Of a DNA stretch of 21,808 nt, positions 1,940 to 15,928 are shown piece by piece. The position numbers and the translations under genes were made by a program. Numbering within the stretch: position 1 is the stretch's first letter; every line of letters begins with the position of its first letter. The stretch lies in IMG/VR virus record IMGVR_UViG_3300031841_003734, positions 1 to 21,808 of that record; one strand, given 5' to 3'. Origin of the DNA: a virus. The notes beneath the pieces are model-generated. The model did not search any database and was not told the DNA's origin. It saw only the letters and a list, made by a program, of their open reading frames with translations.

Positions 1940-2656
1940 ATGATTCGCTGGTTCGGTGCTGCTATGGCCCTATCGTTGCTGCCGTTTTTTGAGTTTTTCC
2001 GCTCCGACAACCCATATCACCTTGCTGCCATCAAGCAGTTAGAGGACGAGTTGCCGGAAAATTTATTAGCCGAAGATGCGGCTTGGTTTGAAGCCTGGAA
2101 AGAATCCGGGATTGCGCAGCAGGTTTACATTCCCTATGTTCATCAGCTTGATTTCGAAGAAGATGGCTTCAGGCGCTGTTTCGACGCTGCAGCAAGCATG
2201 GTCGCGATGATGGCGGGTCGGGTGCGGACTGCCGATCAATACGCCGCCATCCGTAAAAAGCATGGTGATACGACCGAGGTCAAAGCACACATCGCTGCCC
2301 TTACAAAATTGCGGCTTGCTCCGGAGTTTCGAACTGACGGGGATGCCGAGGCGCTCGAAGCGGAGATTGCGAGCGGCAGGCCAGTTTTAGTTGGTTGGCT
2401 GCACAGGGGTGATCTTTCTAAAGGTGAGCCGCCTATGTGCAGCGAAGAAGGTTGCGGGCACTGGAGCGTGATCGTCGGATTTAATAAGGAGAATTTCGTG
2501 ATGATGGATCCGAGAGGGACTCCGGACCTTTTGCGCGGAGGGCACTACGGAAGGCACGGCGGAAAAAACATTGAGGTGTCTCGAAAGCTATTCAACGAGC
2601 GTTGGCAAGCTGACGGACCGTCTACAGGTTGGATGATTCTTATTGAGCCTGATTAG
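1940..2656 (+). CDS. C39-like cysteine peptidase with N-terminal membrane anchor, candidate endolysin
   Basis: The protein is 238 residues. Residues 5-20 are hydrophobic and may act as a signal-anchor. The papain-like fold is suggested by I-P-Y-V-H-Q-L-D followed by the nucleophile region with Cys80 (R-R-C-F-D-A-A-A-S), then G-C-G-H-W-S-V with His174, and M-M-D-P-R-G with Asp190, the expected Cys-His-Asp order of peptidase family C39-like proteins. The segments H-G-D-T-T and G-R-P-V-L-V-G-W-L-H-R-G also occur in cyanophage members that I remember. These enzymes probably cut peptide bonds in the cell wall or process a protein; position beside membrane proteins favours lysis. The Cys-His-Asp assignment is by motif only. 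Its end lies 19 bases before the ATG of the next gene. Confidence 0.8.
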   Translation: MIRWFGAAMALSLLPFFEFFRSDNPYHLAAIKQLEDELPENLLAEDAAWFEAWKESGIAQQVYIPYVHQLDFEEDGFRRCFDAAASMVAMMAGRVRTADQYAAIRKKHGDTTEVKAHIAALTKLRLAPEFRTDGDAEALEAEIASGRPVLVGWLHRGDLSKGEPPMCSEEGCGHWSVIVGFNKENFVMMDPRGTPDLLRGGHYGRHGGKNIEVSRKLFNERWQADGPSTGWMILIEPD

Positions 2657-2675
2657 GCTGGCGTTTTGCGCTCGC

Positions 2676-3194
2676 ATGGCGGTTCTTTGCGACTGGGAGA
2701 TCAAGGCACGCTGTAAAGGCAGTCAAATGGTTTGGCCTTTTACGGAAGAGCTCCTAAACCCTGCGAGCCTTGACGTTCGTCTCGGGAACACCCTCATGAT
2801 CGAGGTGATGGACAGCCCGGAGCTTATCCGCATTGACATCTCCGATAGAGATGAACAGAACCCCTACCTTCTGCTCCCTGGCGATTTTTGCCTTGCCGAA
2901 ACGGTCGAAGTGTTTCACCTCCCGGACGACGTATCAGCGCAGTTTGTTTTGAAGAGCAGCCGAGCTCGCGCAGGATTCCAGCATCTTCTTGCTGGCTGGT
3001 GTGATCCGGGCTGGCACGGAAGCAAGCTGACCCTAGAACTCAAAAATGTGCGCCGACATCATCCGCTTGAGCTTTACCCAAACCTCAAGATCGGACAGAT
3101 GGTCTTCCACCTCATGAACAATATTCCTAGCCATAGCTACCGGGAAGTCGGGCACTACAACAATCATTTGACCGTTATGCCTTCAGTCGCATAA
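2676..3194 (+). CDS. dcd: dCTP deaminase-like protein
   Basis: The protein is 172 residues from the ATG at 2676; a TTG at 2643 would add 11 residues and overlap the peptidase gene, but family members begin near M-x-V-L-x-D-x-E-I as here. Family marks are S-L-D-V-R-L-G (31-37), L-L-P-G-D-F (67-71), S-S-R-A-R-x-G (94-100), D-P-G-W-H-G (110-115), and the catalytic-type Glu in L-E-L-K-N (121). dCTP deaminase converts dCTP to dUTP, feeding thymidylate synthesis; a related subgroup also or instead cleaves dUTP, and I cannot separate these by eye. In a phage it would adjust nucleotide supply. It overlaps the next ATG by one base. Confidence 0.88.
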   Translation: MAVLCDWEIKARCKGSQMVWPFTEELLNPASLDVRLGNTLMIEVMDSPELIRIDISDRDEQNPYLLLPGDFCLAETVEVFHLPDDVSAQFVLKSSRARAGFQHLLAGWCDPGWHGSKLTLELKNVRRHHPLELYPNLKIGQMVFHLMNNIPSHSYREVGHYNNHLTVMPSVA

Positions 3195-10964: not shown

Positions 10965-11079
10965 GTTCGTCGGCATCGTTAGTTCGATGCATTTAGTTGA
11001 ACCTAAGATCAACCAGCTAACATCCCACTGGAAAAAGAGACACATTTCCAGTGACATCCATCAACGATCTGAAAGCTGA
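10882..11079 (+). CDS. Small hypothetical protein (65 aa), frame overlapping its neighbour
   Basis: The part after base 10964 looks coding (I-R-T-L-D-D-G-C-V-R-I-Q-V-G-E-F-V-G-I-V-S-S-M-H-L-V-E-P-K-I-N-Q-L), a likely beta-rich fold. The part before it (Ser/Thr/Pro-rich) lies inside the 10818 gene in another frame and may not be translated. Its end overlaps the ParB-like gene start by 29 bases. The start is therefore uncertain. Confidence 0.4.
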   Translation: MSNESPTSTPAAKIRTLDDGCVRIQVGEFVGIVSSMHLVEPKINQLTSHWKKRHISSDIHQRSES

Positions 11080-11551
11080 TCACAAAAATGCCCGCAAGCG
11101 TACCGATCGCTCAGCAGGCCTCATCAAAGAATCTCTTCAGCGTTACGGTGCTGCCCGATCGATCGTCATTGACGAGGACAACCGCATCCTCGCCGGTAAC
11201 GGCACCATTGAAGGCGCGAAGGAAGCAGGCATCAGTCGCATCCGTGTAATCGATACCGACGGCGATGAAGTAATCGCCGTGCGAAGAACCGGATTGACCG
11301 AAGAGCAAAAAGTTGGCCTAGCTCTCGCCGATAACCGCACTGCCGACCTCTCCGAGTGGGATCAGGAGATGCTGAACCGCCTAGGCGAAGAGCACGACAT
11401 CTCTCTCTTCTTCAACTCCGACGACATCAACGGCATTCTCGAAATCGAAGACGACCCGACCGCCCCGGACGATTTCGACGAGGTTGACGACGACATCGCA
11501 ACCGAACACCGTTGCCCCTCCTGCGGCTACGAATGGAGCGGGAAGGCTTAA
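11051..11551 (+). CDS. ParB-like domain protein with C-terminal zinc ribbon
   Basis: The protein is 166 residues from GTG 11051. The ParB/Srx-type domain spans about 1-95: I-N-D-L-K-A-D-H-K-N-A-R-K-R-T, S-I-V-I-D-E-D-N-R-I-L-A-G-N-G-T-I-E-G-A-K-E-A-G (the ParB box with A-G-N-G) and L-T-E-E-Q-K-V-G-L-A-L-A-D-N-R-T. A polar acidic linker follows and the end has C-P-S-C-G-Y-E-W, one half of a zinc ribbon; with only two Cys visible plus an upstream H-R, metal binding would need His or a dimer. Phage proteins with this domain often stand next to DNA methyltransferases and have been linked to DNA binding, CTP binding or nicking. It stands just before the DNA modification genes, separated by one small gene and a promoter. 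Confidence 0.85.
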   Translation: MTSINDLKADHKNARKRTDRSAGLIKESLQRYGAARSIVIDEDNRILAGNGTIEGAKEAGISRIRVIDTDGDEVIAVRRTGLTEEQKVGLALADNRTADLSEWDQEMLNRLGEEHDISLFFNSDDINGILEIEDDPTAPDDFDEVDDDIATEHRCPSCGYEWSGKA

Positions 11552-11608: not shown

Positions 11609-11809
11609 ATGCAAATCCGACTCATCCCCCCTTTCAACCGTCGCAAGCCCAAGTGGTCCGTCGCTACCTTCGTCAAGGATCCGATCATGTGCTCCTGGAA
11701 GGAAGCTAAGCGCAAACGCTTCGCTGACGCCGCCGAGGCTCGCGCCTTCGCCGAACAACTCGCCGCTAAAAACAACGCCGAAATCATCGAAGTCGCACCG
11801 GTACGTTGA
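11609..11809 (+). CDS. Small basic hypothetical protein (66 aa)
   Basis: The ATG at 11609 follows P4 and a leader with GGGAGCG. The product is basic at first (F-N-R-R-K-P-K-W-S-V-A-T-F-V-K-D-P, W-K-E-A-K-R-K-R-F) then helical (A-D-A-A-E-A-R-A-F-A-E-Q-L-A-A-K-N-N-A). No known family. It is the only gene between P4 and the intrinsic terminator at 11833, so it may be expressed alone. Its TGA overlaps the TTG start of the next gene (TTGA). Confidence 0.7.
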   Translation: MQIRLIPPFNRRKPKWSVATFVKDPIMCSWKEAKRKRFADAAEARAFAEQLAAKNNAEIIEVAPVR

Positions 11810-12585
11810 GACAGCAGTTAATCGACATCCTCGCCCCTTTACCTAGGGGCTTTTTTGTTGCTACATCGGGCGGCATCGATTCCTCCGCTTTAGTCGTAGC
11901 CGCCGTCGTAGCAGGCAAATCTCCTCAAGTCGTCTCCTTCACCTTCGATGACTTCGAGTCAGACGACTTCCAAAGGGCTAAGCGTCTTGCCGATCATTTC
12001 CACTGCTCTTTTCAACCAGTTCGGTTGCCCTCCGATTCTCAGCTGATCCTCTCCTCTGTTCGCTGTCTCATCCGTCAATACAAGCTCAGCAAGAAGGCTC
12101 GTATTGAATGTGCCTTCCCCTTCCTTCACATGGCGAAGGCTTTAAGGTCTCAAACCCTCGTTACAGGCCTCTGCGCTGATGGACATTTCGGACTCTCTAA
12201 AAAGGCAATGATTCACTACAGGTATCCCCAAAGCAAGTTCGATCAGTTCCGCAATGAATACTTCGCCAACCCTGATGCGGGAGGGAGGCAAGGCATACAA
12301 AAGATCTGCAACACTTATGACGTAAATCTTTCAAATCCTTACCTGCACTCAAGCATCTTCTCTCTGCTGCATGGGCGCTCTTGGGATGAGCTAAACAAAC
12401 CCCGTCAAAAAGAGGCGATCCGTTCCGCCTTCCCTGAGCTCGATTCCCTAAACCTCCCACGCCATACCAATCTTCAGCTCGGTGATTCAAAAATCGCCGA
12501 ACGTCTAGGCACCATTGCGATGGCGGCTGTCCCAGGTTCAAACTCCCCTGTCGGGGCTTACAACCAAATCAGAAAGCAACGATGA
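11806..12585 (+). CDS. Asparagine-synthetase-like PP-loop ATP-dependent amidotransferase (stand-alone)
   Basis: The protein is 259 residues from TTG 11806. The PP-loop S-G-G-I-D-S-S (21-27) follows a hydrophobic strand G-F-F-V-A-T. Further AsnB-type marks are V-V-S-F-T-F-D-D-F-E-S-D-D (42-54), P-F-L-H-M-A-K (105-111), and V-T-G-L-C-A-D-G-H-F-G-L-S-K-K (119-133), equivalent to the S-G-x-G-A-D-E-L-F-G motif of asparagine synthetase. There is no N-terminal glutaminase domain, so ammonia would come from solution or another protein. PP-loop enzymes adenylate a carboxyl or amide group for attack by a nucleophile. It overlaps the C5-methyltransferase gene by four bases. I propose it amidates a carboxymethylated DNA base. 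Alternatives: modification of a nucleotide or a QueC-like role, but QueC Cys ligands are not seen. A terminator lies in codons 10-17. Confidence 0.78.
   Translation: MRQQLIDILAPLPRGFFVATSGGIDSSALVVAAVVAGKSPQVVSFTFDDFESDDFQRAKRLADHFHCSFQPVRLPSDSQLILSSVRCLIRQYKLSKKARIECAFPFLHMAKALRSQTLVTGLCADGHFGLSKKAMIHYRYPQSKFDQFRNEYFANPDAGGRQGIQKICNTYDVNLSNPYLHSSIFSLLHGRSWDELNKPRQKEAIRSAFPELDSLNLPRHTNLQLGDSKIAERLGTIAMAAVPGSNSPVGAYNQIRKQR
11833..11856 (+). terminator. Intrinsic terminator inside the 5' end of the PP-loop gene
   Basis: GCCCCT (11833-11838) pairs perfectly with AGGGGC (11845-11850) around a six-base loop, followed by TTTTTT (11851-11856). This is a classic Rho-independent terminator. It lies in the codons for L-A-P-L-P-R-G-F-F, ahead of the PP-loop motif, so the coding sequence cannot start below it. 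Termination would separate the early genes from the modification and packaging genes unless ribosomes or an antiterminator prevent it. Confidence 0.7.
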
Positions 12586-13664
12586 AACCGCCTTACATCG
12601 TCCCGTCGATGGCACACATCGCGGCCCTTCCCTGGAACGGCTACACCGTTGCCTCTACCTTCTCCGGCGCTGGTGGCTCTTGCCTTGGTTACAGAATGGC
12701 TGGCTATCGCGTCGCCTATGCCCTCGAGTTCGTAGCCGAAGCACAACGCTGCTACAAAGCAAACCATCCAAACAGCTACCTCGACGGCACCGATATAAGA
12801 CAGCTTCAGCCTGAGCAGCTCCTACAACGCGCAGGCATCAAGCGCGGTCAGCTAGACATCCTCGATGGATCCCCTCCCTGTTCTGCTTTCTCTACCGCAG
12901 GAAAGCGTGAAGAAGGCTGGGGCAAAGTCAAGGCATACTCCGATCGAGCACAACGCGTTGATGATCTCTTCTATGAATACGCTCGCATCCTGCAAGGCGT
13001 ACAGCCAAAGGTCTTCGTCGCAGAAAATGTCAGCGGCCTCGTAAAGGGAACCGCTAAGGGTTACTTCAAGCGCATCCTTCAAGCCCTTAAAGACTGCGGC
13101 TATGAAGTCTCTTGCCGCGTCTTAGACGCTCGCTGGCTAGGTGTCCCCCAAATGCGCAAACGCACCATCTTCGTCGGAGTCCGCAAAGATCTCGGCTTGC
13201 CTCCCGCGCATCCCAAGCCCTTCCCCTACACCTATAACGTCGGCGATGCTCTCCTAACACCCCCGCCTGACACCACCGCAAAATGGCTTAAACAAGACAC
13301 TGAGACCTACCGCTTCTGGTCGCAAACAAAAGCAGGCGACAACCTAGGTAACACCTGTAAGCGCCTCACCGGCAAAAACAGCTTTCTCACTCACTGCAAG
13401 CAATCGCCCCGTCTCCCCGCAAACACCATTACGCAAGGCACTCAGCAGCTCTATCACTGGACAGAGCCCCGAACCCTTACCCTCGGTGAATTACGACGCA
13501 TCGGCGGCTTCCCCGACGATTTCGAGCTCACCGGCTCTTTCTCTCAACAATGGGAGCGTATTGGGCGTGCAGTCCCGCCTTTAATGATGGCTGAGGTTGC
13601 TAAAACTATTGAAAGAGAAATCCTGAGAAAAATCGGTGGAGATTCCAGCGAGTTGGACATTTGA
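12582..13664 (+). CDS. Cytosine-C5 DNA methyltransferase family enzyme with Arg in motif X, candidate carboxymethyltransferase
   Basis: The protein is 360 residues. Motif I is F-S-G-A-G-G-S-C-L-G (27-36), motif IV G-S-P-P-C-S-A-F-S with catalytic Cys100, motif VI E-N-V (148-150), motif VIII Q-M-R-K-R (190-194), and motif X I-G-R-A-V-P-P (327-333). The region about 200-300 is the target recognition part. Such enzymes attack C6 of cytosine by the Cys and transfer the group from SAM to C5. Motif X usually reads G-N-x-V, and here the Asn is Arg (residue 329, codon 13566-13568). This Asn lines the cofactor pocket near the transferred group; from memory, changing it to Lys in M.MpeI allows use of carboxy-SAM. 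The adjoining CmoA-like gene makes such a cofactor plausible. No restriction enzyme gene is nearby, so protection against host defence is the likely role. Confidence 0.93.
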   Translation: MKPPYIVPSMAHIAALPWNGYTVASTFSGAGGSCLGYRMAGYRVAYALEFVAEAQRCYKANHPNSYLDGTDIRQLQPEQLLQRAGIKRGQLDILDGSPPCSAFSTAGKREEGWGKVKAYSDRAQRVDDLFYEYARILQGVQPKVFVAENVSGLVKGTAKGYFKRILQALKDCGYEVSCRVLDARWLGVPQMRKRTIFVGVRKDLGLPPAHPKPFPYTYNVGDALLTPPPDTTAKWLKQDTETYRFWSQTKAGDNLGNTCKRLTGKNSFLTHCKQSPRLPANTITQGTQQLYHWTEPRTLTLGELRRIGGFPDDFELTGSFSQQWERIGRAVPPLMMAEVAKTIEREILRKIGGDSSELDI

Positions 13665-14289
13665 AACCTCTGAAGTAGCCAAAGGGTTCGACAACCACGT
13701 TCGTGAACAGCTCCCTTGGTACGACTTAGCAACAAACGCAATCACTCATATCGCAAGGCATTACATCCCTCAAAACGGCCTCGTCTATGACATCGGCTGC
13801 GCTACCGGAAATGTCGGGCGCAACCTCAGCGATACCCTCGAAGCTCGCAAGGCTCGTCTCGTAGGCATCGATCCTTCCGATGAAATGCGAAAGCTCTATG
13901 ACGCACCAGGCATCTTCATCTGCTCTAAAGCTGAGGACTATCAATATGAACCCTTTGATCTAGGCATCCTTTTCCTCGCTCTAATGTTCGTTGAACCGAG
14001 CAAACGTGTCTCTTACATGGCAGCTCTTTACGAAAACTGCAAGCCCGGTGGTGCCATCATCCTCTTCGATAAACTCGAGCCCACCCAGGGTTACCTAGGA
14101 ACAATCATGTACCGCTTGACCCTCGCAGGTAAATATCAGGCCGGTGTTAACGCTCAAGAGATCATTGACAAAGAGCTCTCCCTTGCTGGCGTGCAAAGGC
14201 CAATATCATTGAAACAGCTCCCATGCTTCCCCTATCAGTGGTTCAAATTTGGTGATTTCGCTGGTTACATCCTCGAGAAACCAATCTGA
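13636..14289 (+). CDS. CmoA-like SAM-dependent enzyme, candidate carboxy-SAM synthase
   Basis: The protein is 217 residues from GTG 13636, which overlaps the methyltransferase end by 29 bases. The Rossmann motif I is V-Y-D-I-G-C-A-T-G (50-58). The stretch V-A-K-G-F-D...Y-I-P-Q-N-G-L-V-Y-D-I-G-C matches E. coli CmoA (remembered as V-A-E-V-F-P...F-V-Q-P-G-T-Q-V-Y-D-L-G-C) in spacing, F-V-E-P-S-K-R matches F-L-E-P-S-E-R, K-P-G-G-A-I-I-L matches N-P-G-G-A-L-V-L, and the end W-F-K-F-G-D matches the C-terminal W-F-Q-C-F-N-F-G. CmoA uses prephenate to carboxylate SAM, normally for tRNA U34 modification. It is about 30 residues shorter than CmoA, and the counterpart of CmoA Arg199 is not evident, so substrate is unproven. 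A plain type-11 methyltransferase is the alternative. Its stop overlaps the TerS ATG. Confidence 0.75.
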   Translation: MEIPASWTFETSEVAKGFDNHVREQLPWYDLATNAITHIARHYIPQNGLVYDIGCATGNVGRNLSDTLEARKARLVGIDPSDEMRKLYDAPGIFICSKAEDYQYEPFDLGILFLALMFVEPSKRVSYMAALYENCKPGGAIILFDKLEPTQGYLGTIMYRLTLAGKYQAGVNAQEIIDKELSLAGVQRPISLKQLPCFPYQWFKFGDFAGYILEKPI

Positions 14290-14606
14290 TGGCTAAGTCA
14301 ACCAAAATCGAAAAAGACATGCGGGTCAACCGCGTTGCTCGCCTCTTGTCGAACGGCGCGGTCAGATCTGAAATTTGTCAATACGCGGCCAACGAGTGGG
14401 GGACGAGCGACCGGCAAACAGATCGCTATATCGCCGAAGCTAGGGACTTGATTCGTGCCGACTGGGAAGTTGACCGGCGCACCTTCACGGCGGAGATCCT
14501 CGCTCAGCTAGCCAGTATCCAAAAAGAAGCCCGCAAGCAGGGCAACCTCAACGTGGCCCTTGGTTGCGTAAATCAGGCCGCTAGAGTCGCACGGCTTTTT
14601 GAATGA
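14289..14606 (+). CDS. terS: Probable terminase small subunit
   Basis: The protein is 105 residues with a likely N-terminal DNA-binding part (R-V-N-R-V-A-R-L-L-S-N-G-A-V-R-S-E-I-C-Q-Y-A-A-N-E-W-G-T-S-D-R-Q-T-D-R-Y-I-A-E-A-R) that fits an HTH, then a helical oligomerisation region (Q-L-A-S-I-Q-K-E-A-R-K-Q-G-N-L-N-V-A-L-G-C-V-N-Q-A-A-R). The second half, a helix ending in A-A-R-V-A-R-L-F, is common in small terminases. It would recognise the packaging site and recruit TerL. The ATG overlaps the previous TGA and the stop overlaps the TerL ATG. Assignment rests on size, HTH and position. Confidence 0.8.
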   Translation: MAKSTKIEKDMRVNRVARLLSNGAVRSEICQYAANEWGTSDRQTDRYIAEARDLIRADWEVDRRTFTAEILAQLASIQKEARKQGNLNVALGCVNQAARVARLFE

Positions 14607-15928
14607 GCATCCTCGCCTCTGTCCCCGGTGGTTCGATCCTCTCTGCGATCGAGTCGGCAGCGCCTTTCACAGAGGCAGACTTAAGGAGCTATGTCGACGG
14701 CTTAGCCGAAGGGCTTACAGGTCCGCAGCGCGAAGTTTGGGAGTCGCAGCAACGCTTCAAACTGCTCTGTTCCGGTCGTCGTTTCGGCAAGACCTATCTC
14801 TGCATCACGCGGTTGATCTGCTGGGCGATGGAAAAGCCTGGCAGTCTTTGCTGGTACGTCACCGCCAACTACCGAATGGCGAAGCAGATTGCGTGGCGGC
14901 AGCTTAAGGCGATGGCCCCTGAGGAGCTCGTCGTGAAACGCAACGAGTCTGACTTGTCGATCGAGTTTGCTAACGGCAGCCTGATCGCTTTACGCGGTGC
15001 CGATAACGAAGACAGCCTGCGAGGTGTAAGCCTCTCTGCGCTTGTGATCGATGAGGCCGCTTACGTCAAGCAGACCGCGTGGGAGATGGTCCTGCGTCCT
15101 GCCTTGTCGGATCAGAACGGCCCTGCCTGGTTCATTACGACTCCTGCAGGGCTCAACTGGTTTCACGACCTGTGGGAGCAGGCACAAGAGCAAAGCGATT
15201 GGAGCACTTTTAGCTTTACGACGATTCAGGGCGGGAACGTCTCCGCCGAAGAGATTGAGGCCGCTCGTAACACGCTCGATGACCGAACCTTCCGGCAGGA
15301 ATATCTAGCAAGCTTTGAGACGCTCTCCGGTCGTGTCTACCCCGGCTTCGACGACGAAAATATCAGCGAAGACGTACACGATGTCGGCGGTCCGATTTAC
15401 TGGGGCACTGATTTCAACGTCAGCATCATGGCGGGCGTTATCGGTAGCCGGGTCGGAGATACTCTGCATATTTGGGATGAGCTTGCAGTCAAGCAGTCCA
15501 ATACCGATGAGGTCTGCGCGATGCTGAAGGCTCGCTACCCGGATCGACAAATCATTGCTTACCCAGACCCGACGGGATCGGCTCGCAAAACGTCTTCCGC
15601 AGGCAGGACCGATCACGACATCATCCGTCGTGCCGGGTTTAGCTGTATCAGCCCGAAAGCGCCATGGTCTGTTAAAGATAAAATCAACGCGACAAACTGG
15701 ATGATCCGAACTGCTAAGGGAAGCATCCGACTGTTTATTCACCCGCGTTGTAAGCACACAATCAAGGCCCTTAAAAACGTGACCTTCAAGCAAGGCGCAG
15801 AAGATTATGTGATTGACAAGTCAGCGAATATCGAGCACTGGACTGATGGCCTAGGTTATTTAGTGCTGGGTGCATTTAATCCTTTGCACGAGCGTGCTGG
15901 AAGAGGCACCGGCATTAGGCTTTACTAA
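14603..15928 (+). CDS. terL: Terminase large subunit
   Basis: The protein is 441 residues. Walker A-type S-G-R-R-F-G-K-T (57-64), Walker B V-I-D-E-A-A-Y (147-153) with the catalytic Glu, and the coupling motif T-T-P (about 178-180) form the ATPase. The nuclease domain begins with W-G-T-D-F-N-V (266-272), has Y-P-D-P-T-G-S and ends with an H-W-T-D-G-L-G-Y-L motif carrying its metal-binding Asp. TerL packages DNA into the prohead and cuts concatemers. It is followed after 26 bases by the portal gene. Confidence 0.95.
   Translation: MSILASVPGGSILSAIESAAPFTEADLRSYVDGLAEGLTGPQREVWESQQRFKLLCSGRRFGKTYLCITRLICWAMEKPGSLCWYVTANYRMAKQIAWRQLKAMAPEELVVKRNESDLSIEFANGSLIALRGADNEDSLRGVSLSALVIDEAAYVKQTAWEMVLRPALSDQNGPAWFITTPAGLNWFHDLWEQAQEQSDWSTFSFTTIQGGNVSAEEIEAARNTLDDRTFRQEYLASFETLSGRVYPGFDDENISEDVHDVGGPIYWGTDFNVSIMAGVIGSRVGDTLHIWDELAVKQSNTDEVCAMLKARYPDRQIIAYPDPTGSARKTSSAGRTDHDIIRRAGFSCISPKAPWSVKDKINATNWMIRTAKGSIRLFIHPRCKHTIKALKNVTFKQGAEDYVIDKSANIEHWTDGLGYLVLGAFNPLHERAGRGTGIRLY

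Follow-up and report, generated by a model that had tools for sequence, protein, structure and literature searches.

The window analyzed here, a stretch of 21,808 nucleotides comprising part of the genome of the virus in IMG/VR record IMGVR_UViG_3300031841_003734, contains three consecutive genes on one strand, encoding an AsnB-like ligase, a homologue of C5 DNA methyltransferases, and a CmoA-like protein (Table 1). An earlier note, made from the sequence alone, had described these genes as overlapping by 4 bases (first and second) and 29 bases (second and third), and the description was borne out by the open reading frame calls and by matches to PF00733, PF00145, and TIGR00740. The note had also proposed that the genes form a DNA hypermodification pathway, and had left undecided whether such a pathway was already published. 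It has been: all three steps were shown for Synechococcus phage S-B43 in December 2025 (Yang et al., Nat Commun 2025;17:281; PMC12783734). In that phage, CmoA (SpCmoA) produces carboxy-S-adenosylmethionine (Cx-SAM), CmoX (SpCmoX), a C5-methyltransferase homologue, generates 5-carboxymethylcytosine (5cxmC) at GC sites, and CmoY (SpCmoY), an AsnB homologue, joins glycine to 5-carboxymethylcytosine, with the glycyl product being present in virion DNA (PMC12783734). The three genes of the window can with considerable confidence be read as a cyanophage CmoA-CmoX-CmoY DNA hypermodification cassette, that is, very likely a further example, in another cyanophage, of chemistry already known. The identification is in this respect mainly confirmatory, and the contig may itself be among the 5,615 CmoX candidates of the published survey, the source of which was IMG/VR v4 (PMC12783734). 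No second report of natural 5cxmC was found in the open literature, a scope excluding subscription papers and most preprints.

Table 1. Positions of the cassette genes, diagnostic motifs and codons, and flanking genes in the window (aa, amino acids).
Feature	Positions	Strand	Remarks
CmoY candidate, AsnB-type PP-loop ligase	11806..12585	+	TTG start, 259 aa
PP-loop SGGIDSS of the ligase, residues 21-27	11866..11886	+	sequence, alignment
ADGHFG motif of the ligase, residues 124-129	12175..12192	+	SpCmoY-type D-G where AsnB has D-E
CmoX candidate, C5 DNA methyltransferase homologue	12582..13664	+	ATG start, 360 aa
SPPC nucleophile motif (C100) of CmoX	12870..12881	+	aligned to SpCmoX C98 and M.HhaI C81
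Arg329 codon of CmoX	13566..13568	+	equivalent of SpCmoX Arg350 (Cx-SAM carboxylate); Asn304 in M.HhaI
CmoA-like carboxy-SAM synthase candidate, phage type	13636..14289	+	GTG start, 217 aa
Glu180 codon of the CmoA homologue	14173..14175	+	aligns with Arg199 of E. coli CmoA; SpCmoA also Glu
ParB-like small DNA-binding protein	11051..11551	+	phrog_620 ParB-like, E = 1.5e-30
66-aa protein, function unknown	11609..11809	+	homologues only in CmoY-bearing sister phages
Small conserved TerS-like gene, downstream border of the cassette slot	14289..14606	+	phrog_34910, E = 4.5e-33; 73-89% in sister phages
Terminase large subunit	14603..15928	+	phrog_2, E = 1.4e-46; 51% identical to cyanophage S-2L

The assignment rests on sequence homology, on the retention of catalytic and cofactor-binding residues, on conservation of the operon, and on the predicted fold of the ligase; the activities of these proteins, the amine, the target sequence, and the protective role are what we infer from these. 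In the proposed mechanism, the CmoA homologue would convert S-adenosylmethionine (SAM) and prephenate to carboxy-SAM, and CmoX would transfer the carboxymethyl group of this cofactor to C5 of cytosine in phage DNA, giving 5-carboxymethylcytosine. CmoY would then activate the carboxylate of the modified base with ATP and form an amide with an amine, the best candidates being alpha-amino acids, for instance glycine. The resulting modified cytosine would probably protect phage DNA from host nucleases. The first two of these steps, which the earlier note had already set out, match the pathway shown in S-B43 (PMC12783734), and the key residues are present in the window.

The methyltransferase homologue matches the C-5 DNA methylase family (PF00145, E = 1.4e-58), and its closest solved sequence is that of SpCmoX in crystal entry 8yf3 (E = 4.6e-72), with the runner-up (3.6e-28) more than 100 bits behind. 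The two proteins share 41% identity, and alignment showed that all of the Cx-SAM contacts published for SpCmoX are retained: the adenosine contacts F25, E47, F48, and D69 of SpCmoX are kept in the window protein as F27, E49, F50, and D71, and the cytosine contacts are kept as E148 and R194. In SpCmoX, which accepts only Cx-SAM, Arg350 binds the carboxylate of the cofactor (PMC12783734), and an Arg is found at this position in all SPPC-type CmoA neighbors aligned. The window protein is very likely a DNA cytosine C5-carboxymethyltransferase and a predicted user of Cx-SAM. Its target-recognition region is unlike that of SpCmoX, a point against carrying over the sequence specificity of the latter. 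Among C5-methyltransferases adjoining CmoA in the loci compared (numbered L), those of L057 and L066-L073 have GFPC for SPPC yet retain an Arg at the R350 position; such proteins would escape the SPPC filter of the published survey. A Met occupies the equivalent position in the L059 and L063 methyltransferases.

The cassette genes are found together in dozens of viral contigs, an outcome that answers the call in the earlier note for a search for their co-occurrence in other phages. With CmoX as the only query, CmoA was present in 44 of 47 new loci, one of the three exceptions lying at a contig end; with CmoY as the only query, CmoX was present in nearly all loci, and CmoA too unless the contig ended. 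Pairwise ratios of nonsynonymous to synonymous substitution (dN/dS) of the cassette genes against close relatives, taken from comparisons with unsaturated synonymous sites only, are 0.04-0.10, indicative of purifying selection. Because the genes recur together and are under purifying selection, the cassette is not a chance grouping. This recurrence also bears on whether the middle gene is an ordinary 5-methylcytosine methyltransferase—an orphan or a restriction-modification partner—with two unrelated neighbors. Such a reading follows the annotation by PADLOC and Pfam, both of which assign type II C5 methyltransferases, but it is highly improbable, and was rejected, on the linkage to CmoA and on Arg329, which stands where ordinary C5 methyltransferases have Asn and corresponds to the Arg of the Cx-SAM-only SpCmoX; the lead of SpCmoX over all other solved sequences also speaks against it. 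A scan of proteins from this partial genome turned up no restriction endonuclease. Multiple separate CmoX-CmoA copies were observed in one Verrucomicrobia metagenome-assembled genome (L139, L146, L150, L157, L167, L168, and L176), and several in a second Verrucomicrobia bin (L144, L147, L148, L151, L155, and L158).

The third protein matches TIGR00740 (E = 3.3e-19), 4gek (E = 7.3e-14), and phrog_4752 (E = 2.2e-50), and residues Y39, D62, and G64 of Escherichia coli CmoA are conserved in the alignment. Several features count against its being a carboxy-SAM synthase: three residues of the E. coli enzyme, Arg199, Asn132, and Asp117, are missing from it, the first of which binds the cofactor carboxylate (PMC3663124); it scores 69.5 bits, below the TIGR00740 equivalog cut-off of 193.3; and it shares only 22% identity with SpCmoA. 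A strict E. coli-type CmoA, in the sense of the TIGR00740 equivalog, was ruled out on this score and on Glu180 in place of Arg199. The missing Arg199 and the score below the cut-off are not disqualifying, however, because the proven SpCmoA, which outpaces E. coli CmoA tenfold (PMC12783734), shares both, reaching 115.6 bits against the same cut-off. Across 57 relatives, Glu is the sole residue aligned with Arg199. The phage enzymes would thus be divergent CmoAs, with the activity of the 217-aa subfamily of the window being predicted from these likenesses.

Alternatively, the CmoA homologue could act in host or phage tRNA modification (the cmo5U pathway) and not supply a DNA enzyme at all. tRNA modification is the classical role of CmoA, and the PHROGs label of the family is tRNA methyltransferase. 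On the other hand, no CmoB-like gene was seen, and the CmoA gene, which overlaps CmoX by 29 bases, travels with CmoX or, in other phages, with another ParB-bearing methyltransferase-like gene; a tRNA role in place of the DNA pathway is accordingly judged the least probable of the explanations weighed here. Cx-SAM made for the DNA hypermodification cassette could nonetheless spill into tRNA.

The ligase matches the Asn_synthase family (PF00733, E = 3.3e-8), and the SGGIDSS and ADGHFG motifs read by the earlier note are present. A PDB sequence search gave nothing significant (best E = 0.11), and the fold was for this reason taken from prediction: over 247-248 residues, the AlphaFold2 model (pLDDT 93.4) has a VIA Z score of 22.5 against human asparagine synthetase (ASNS) and of 22.4 against beta-lactam synthetase, and the predicted fold is that of the synthetase domain in these enzymes. 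The protein is accordingly classed as a putative stand-alone amide ligase of the AMP-forming type. The Pfam scan showed no GATase_6 or GATase_7 glutaminase domain in the 259-aa protein, whereas such a domain is present in the ligase of L015. Identity to SpCmoY is 35% over 212 aa, and residues common to the window protein, SpCmoY, and other short ligases (D125-G126, S131-K132, N197-K198-P-x-Q-K202, and H220-x-N-L-Q224) are partly or wholly missing from glutaminase-type enzymes in the alignment. From these features, the window ligase is predicted to work like CmoY, without a claim to placement in the glycine subfamily.

Indeed, glycine is not assured as the amine, because the ligase belongs to a separate clade with a different C-terminal segment. 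In the tree, which contains long branches, its clade (17 rows) is sister to and outside the SpCmoY clade (26 rows), with SH-aLRT values of 98 and 99 for the two clades, and SpCmoY R249 and R253 are replaced by P243 and S247—both points against direct transfer of the S-B43 function. Glycine itself is the leading candidate, with a probability somewhat short of even; another amine or amino acid is a possible, if tentative, choice. The earlier note had favored ammonia, giving 5-carbamoylmethylcytosine. This choice is in keeping with the AsnB superfamily fold and with the glutaminase-bearing relatives of CmoY, for which glutamine-derived ammonia has been proposed as the amine (PMC12783734) and which occur in the corresponding position in sister phages; free ammonia could also serve a stand-alone synthetase domain. 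The window ligase, however, lacks a glutaminase domain, and its residues follow the proven glycine ligase SpCmoY and depart from the glutaminase-type enzymes, making ammonia an unlikely amine. Thus, the ATP-dependent amide ligation foreseen in the note stood, and its product was not favored. It is possible, though less likely than not, that the CmoY clade of the window uses some third amine, neither glycine nor ammonia, in which case the phage DNA would carry an undescribed hypermodified cytosine. Separately, the CmoY genes of L016, L076, L077, L078, L082, L084, L087, and L199 have a PP-loop reading SGGISS for SGGxDS and are still under purifying selection (dN/dS 0.08 for L016), pointing to either a tolerated change or an altered ligase.

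The remaining genes place the cassette in a phage genome. The portal protein is 72% identical to that of Synechococcus phage KBS-S-2A and 66% identical to those of Prochlorococcus phages, and the window most likely represents part of the genome of a marine cyanosiphovirus; given the similarity to the KBS-S-2A portal, a marine picocyanobacterium is the probable host, as for S-B43. No tRNA genes were found within the window, and a dCTP deaminase-like gene lies at positions 2643-3194 (PF22769, E = 5.6e-32). In most related loci, too, a ParB-like gene lies ahead of the cassette, preceding CmoX or CmoY. In the window, the product of this gene ends in a CPxCG zinc-ribbon-like tail (RCPSCGYEWSG, positions 11509-11548). 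Many relatives have this tail in the ParB-like protein that accompanies CmoX, whereas the ParB-like proteins read in ParB-methyltransferase loci lack it. The 66-aa protein gave no family match in the profile scans.

In relatives with a terminase 89-100% identical to that of the window, the stretch from the ParB-like gene to the terminase genes was compared. Non-redundant loci carry CmoY-CmoX-CmoA in eight cases (the virus of the window included), CmoX-CmoA in four, and CmoX-glutaminase AsnB-CmoA in two. CmoX-CmoA without a ligase lies directly upstream of the terminase genes in sister phages L014, L018, L020, and L021, and in Moraxella phage Mcat8. A glutaminase-type AsnB stands beside CmoX and CmoA in L015, L017, L019, and L025, occupying the same sister-phage slot in the first three; an ammonia-type enzyme thus exists in the lineage of the window, but in sister phages. 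The slot of Prochlorococcus phage MED4-184, a phage with 66% portal identity to the window, is occupied by genes for a DNA methylase and for a homologue of queuine tRNA-ribosyltransferase. DNA-modification genes appear to be exchangeable at this site ahead of the terminase (L014, L015, L017, L018, L020, and L021; L235:2791-4915), and the three alternative cassettes that it holds in phages with terminases 89-97% identical provide ready-made material for comparing how the different caps act against host nucleases.

In many other phages, where CmoX is missing, CmoA is adjoined by a fusion protein of approximately 505 residues, termed here PMT (ParB-methyltransferase), which begins with a ParB domain and weakly matches Methyltransf_23 (L181:702-2237, L314:4932-6488, L315:1032-2624, L043:3579-5093, L055:6484-8004, and others). 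In 78 newly numbered loci, drawn from the best 80 of 266 matches to queries picked next to CmoA, CmoA was present in 77, 72 of which lack any CmoX; co-occurrence is favored in this count because the queries adjoin CmoA and only the nearest matches were kept. A less biased check took in every isolated phage lineage that has a full-length PMT, three in total: Gordonia phage Evaa, Pseudomonas phage SM1, and Aeromonas phage HJ05 each encode a CmoA homologue next to PMT or within ~1 kb of it. Contigs of bacteria, from Alphaproteobacteria, Vibrio, Photobacterium, and Desulfovibrionaceae, carry PMT as well. The model is of moderate confidence (pLDDT 70.9), and Foldseek matched a ParB domain (E about 1e-4) and, weakly, methyltransferase folds. 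No N6-adenine or N4-cytosine carboxymethyltransferase candidates with CmoA were reported by Yang et al. (PMC12783734), and the PMT-CmoA pairing receives no mention in that article, the sole pathway paper found in the open literature. The natural reading is that PMT is a candidate second kind of Cx-SAM-dependent transferase, with no DNA acceptor implied.

Among known systems, the E. coli CmoA/CmoB tRNA pathway shares with the window CmoA homology and the Cx-SAM cofactor, but differs from it in that no CmoB homologue was seen here, Glu stands in for Arg199, and the predicted acceptor is DNA cytosine. Moraxella phage Mcat8 and the ligase-less sister phages have the CmoX-CmoA pair upstream of the terminase, as in the window, with the ligase missing from the slot, and 5cxmC may be the end product in phages of this type. 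The glutaminase-type CmoY proteins (the A0A7T0Q3R0 cluster of PMC12783734; Streptomyces phage TurkishDelight) likewise place an AsnB-type synthetase domain beside CmoX and CmoA, but, unlike the window ligase, contain a class-II glutaminase domain and an AsnB-type DELFGGY-like motif and are predicted to use glutamine-derived ammonia. The S-B43 system has the same three enzymes in a cyanophage, encoded by adjacent overlapping genes, and resembles the window in the CmoX nucleophile, cofactor contacts, and diagnostic Arg, in the short ligase without a glutaminase, and in Glu at the Arg199 position of CmoA. The gene order, however, is CmoA-CmoY-CmoX in S-B43 and CmoY-CmoX-CmoA in the window, the S-B43 genome is of 214 kb whereas that of the window is of a small siphovirus type, the ligases fall in sister clades with different C-terminal segments, and the CmoX target regions differ. 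What the window adds to the S-B43 pathway is a small cyanosiphovirus lineage with three versions of the slot and a ligase clade with a possibly different amine.

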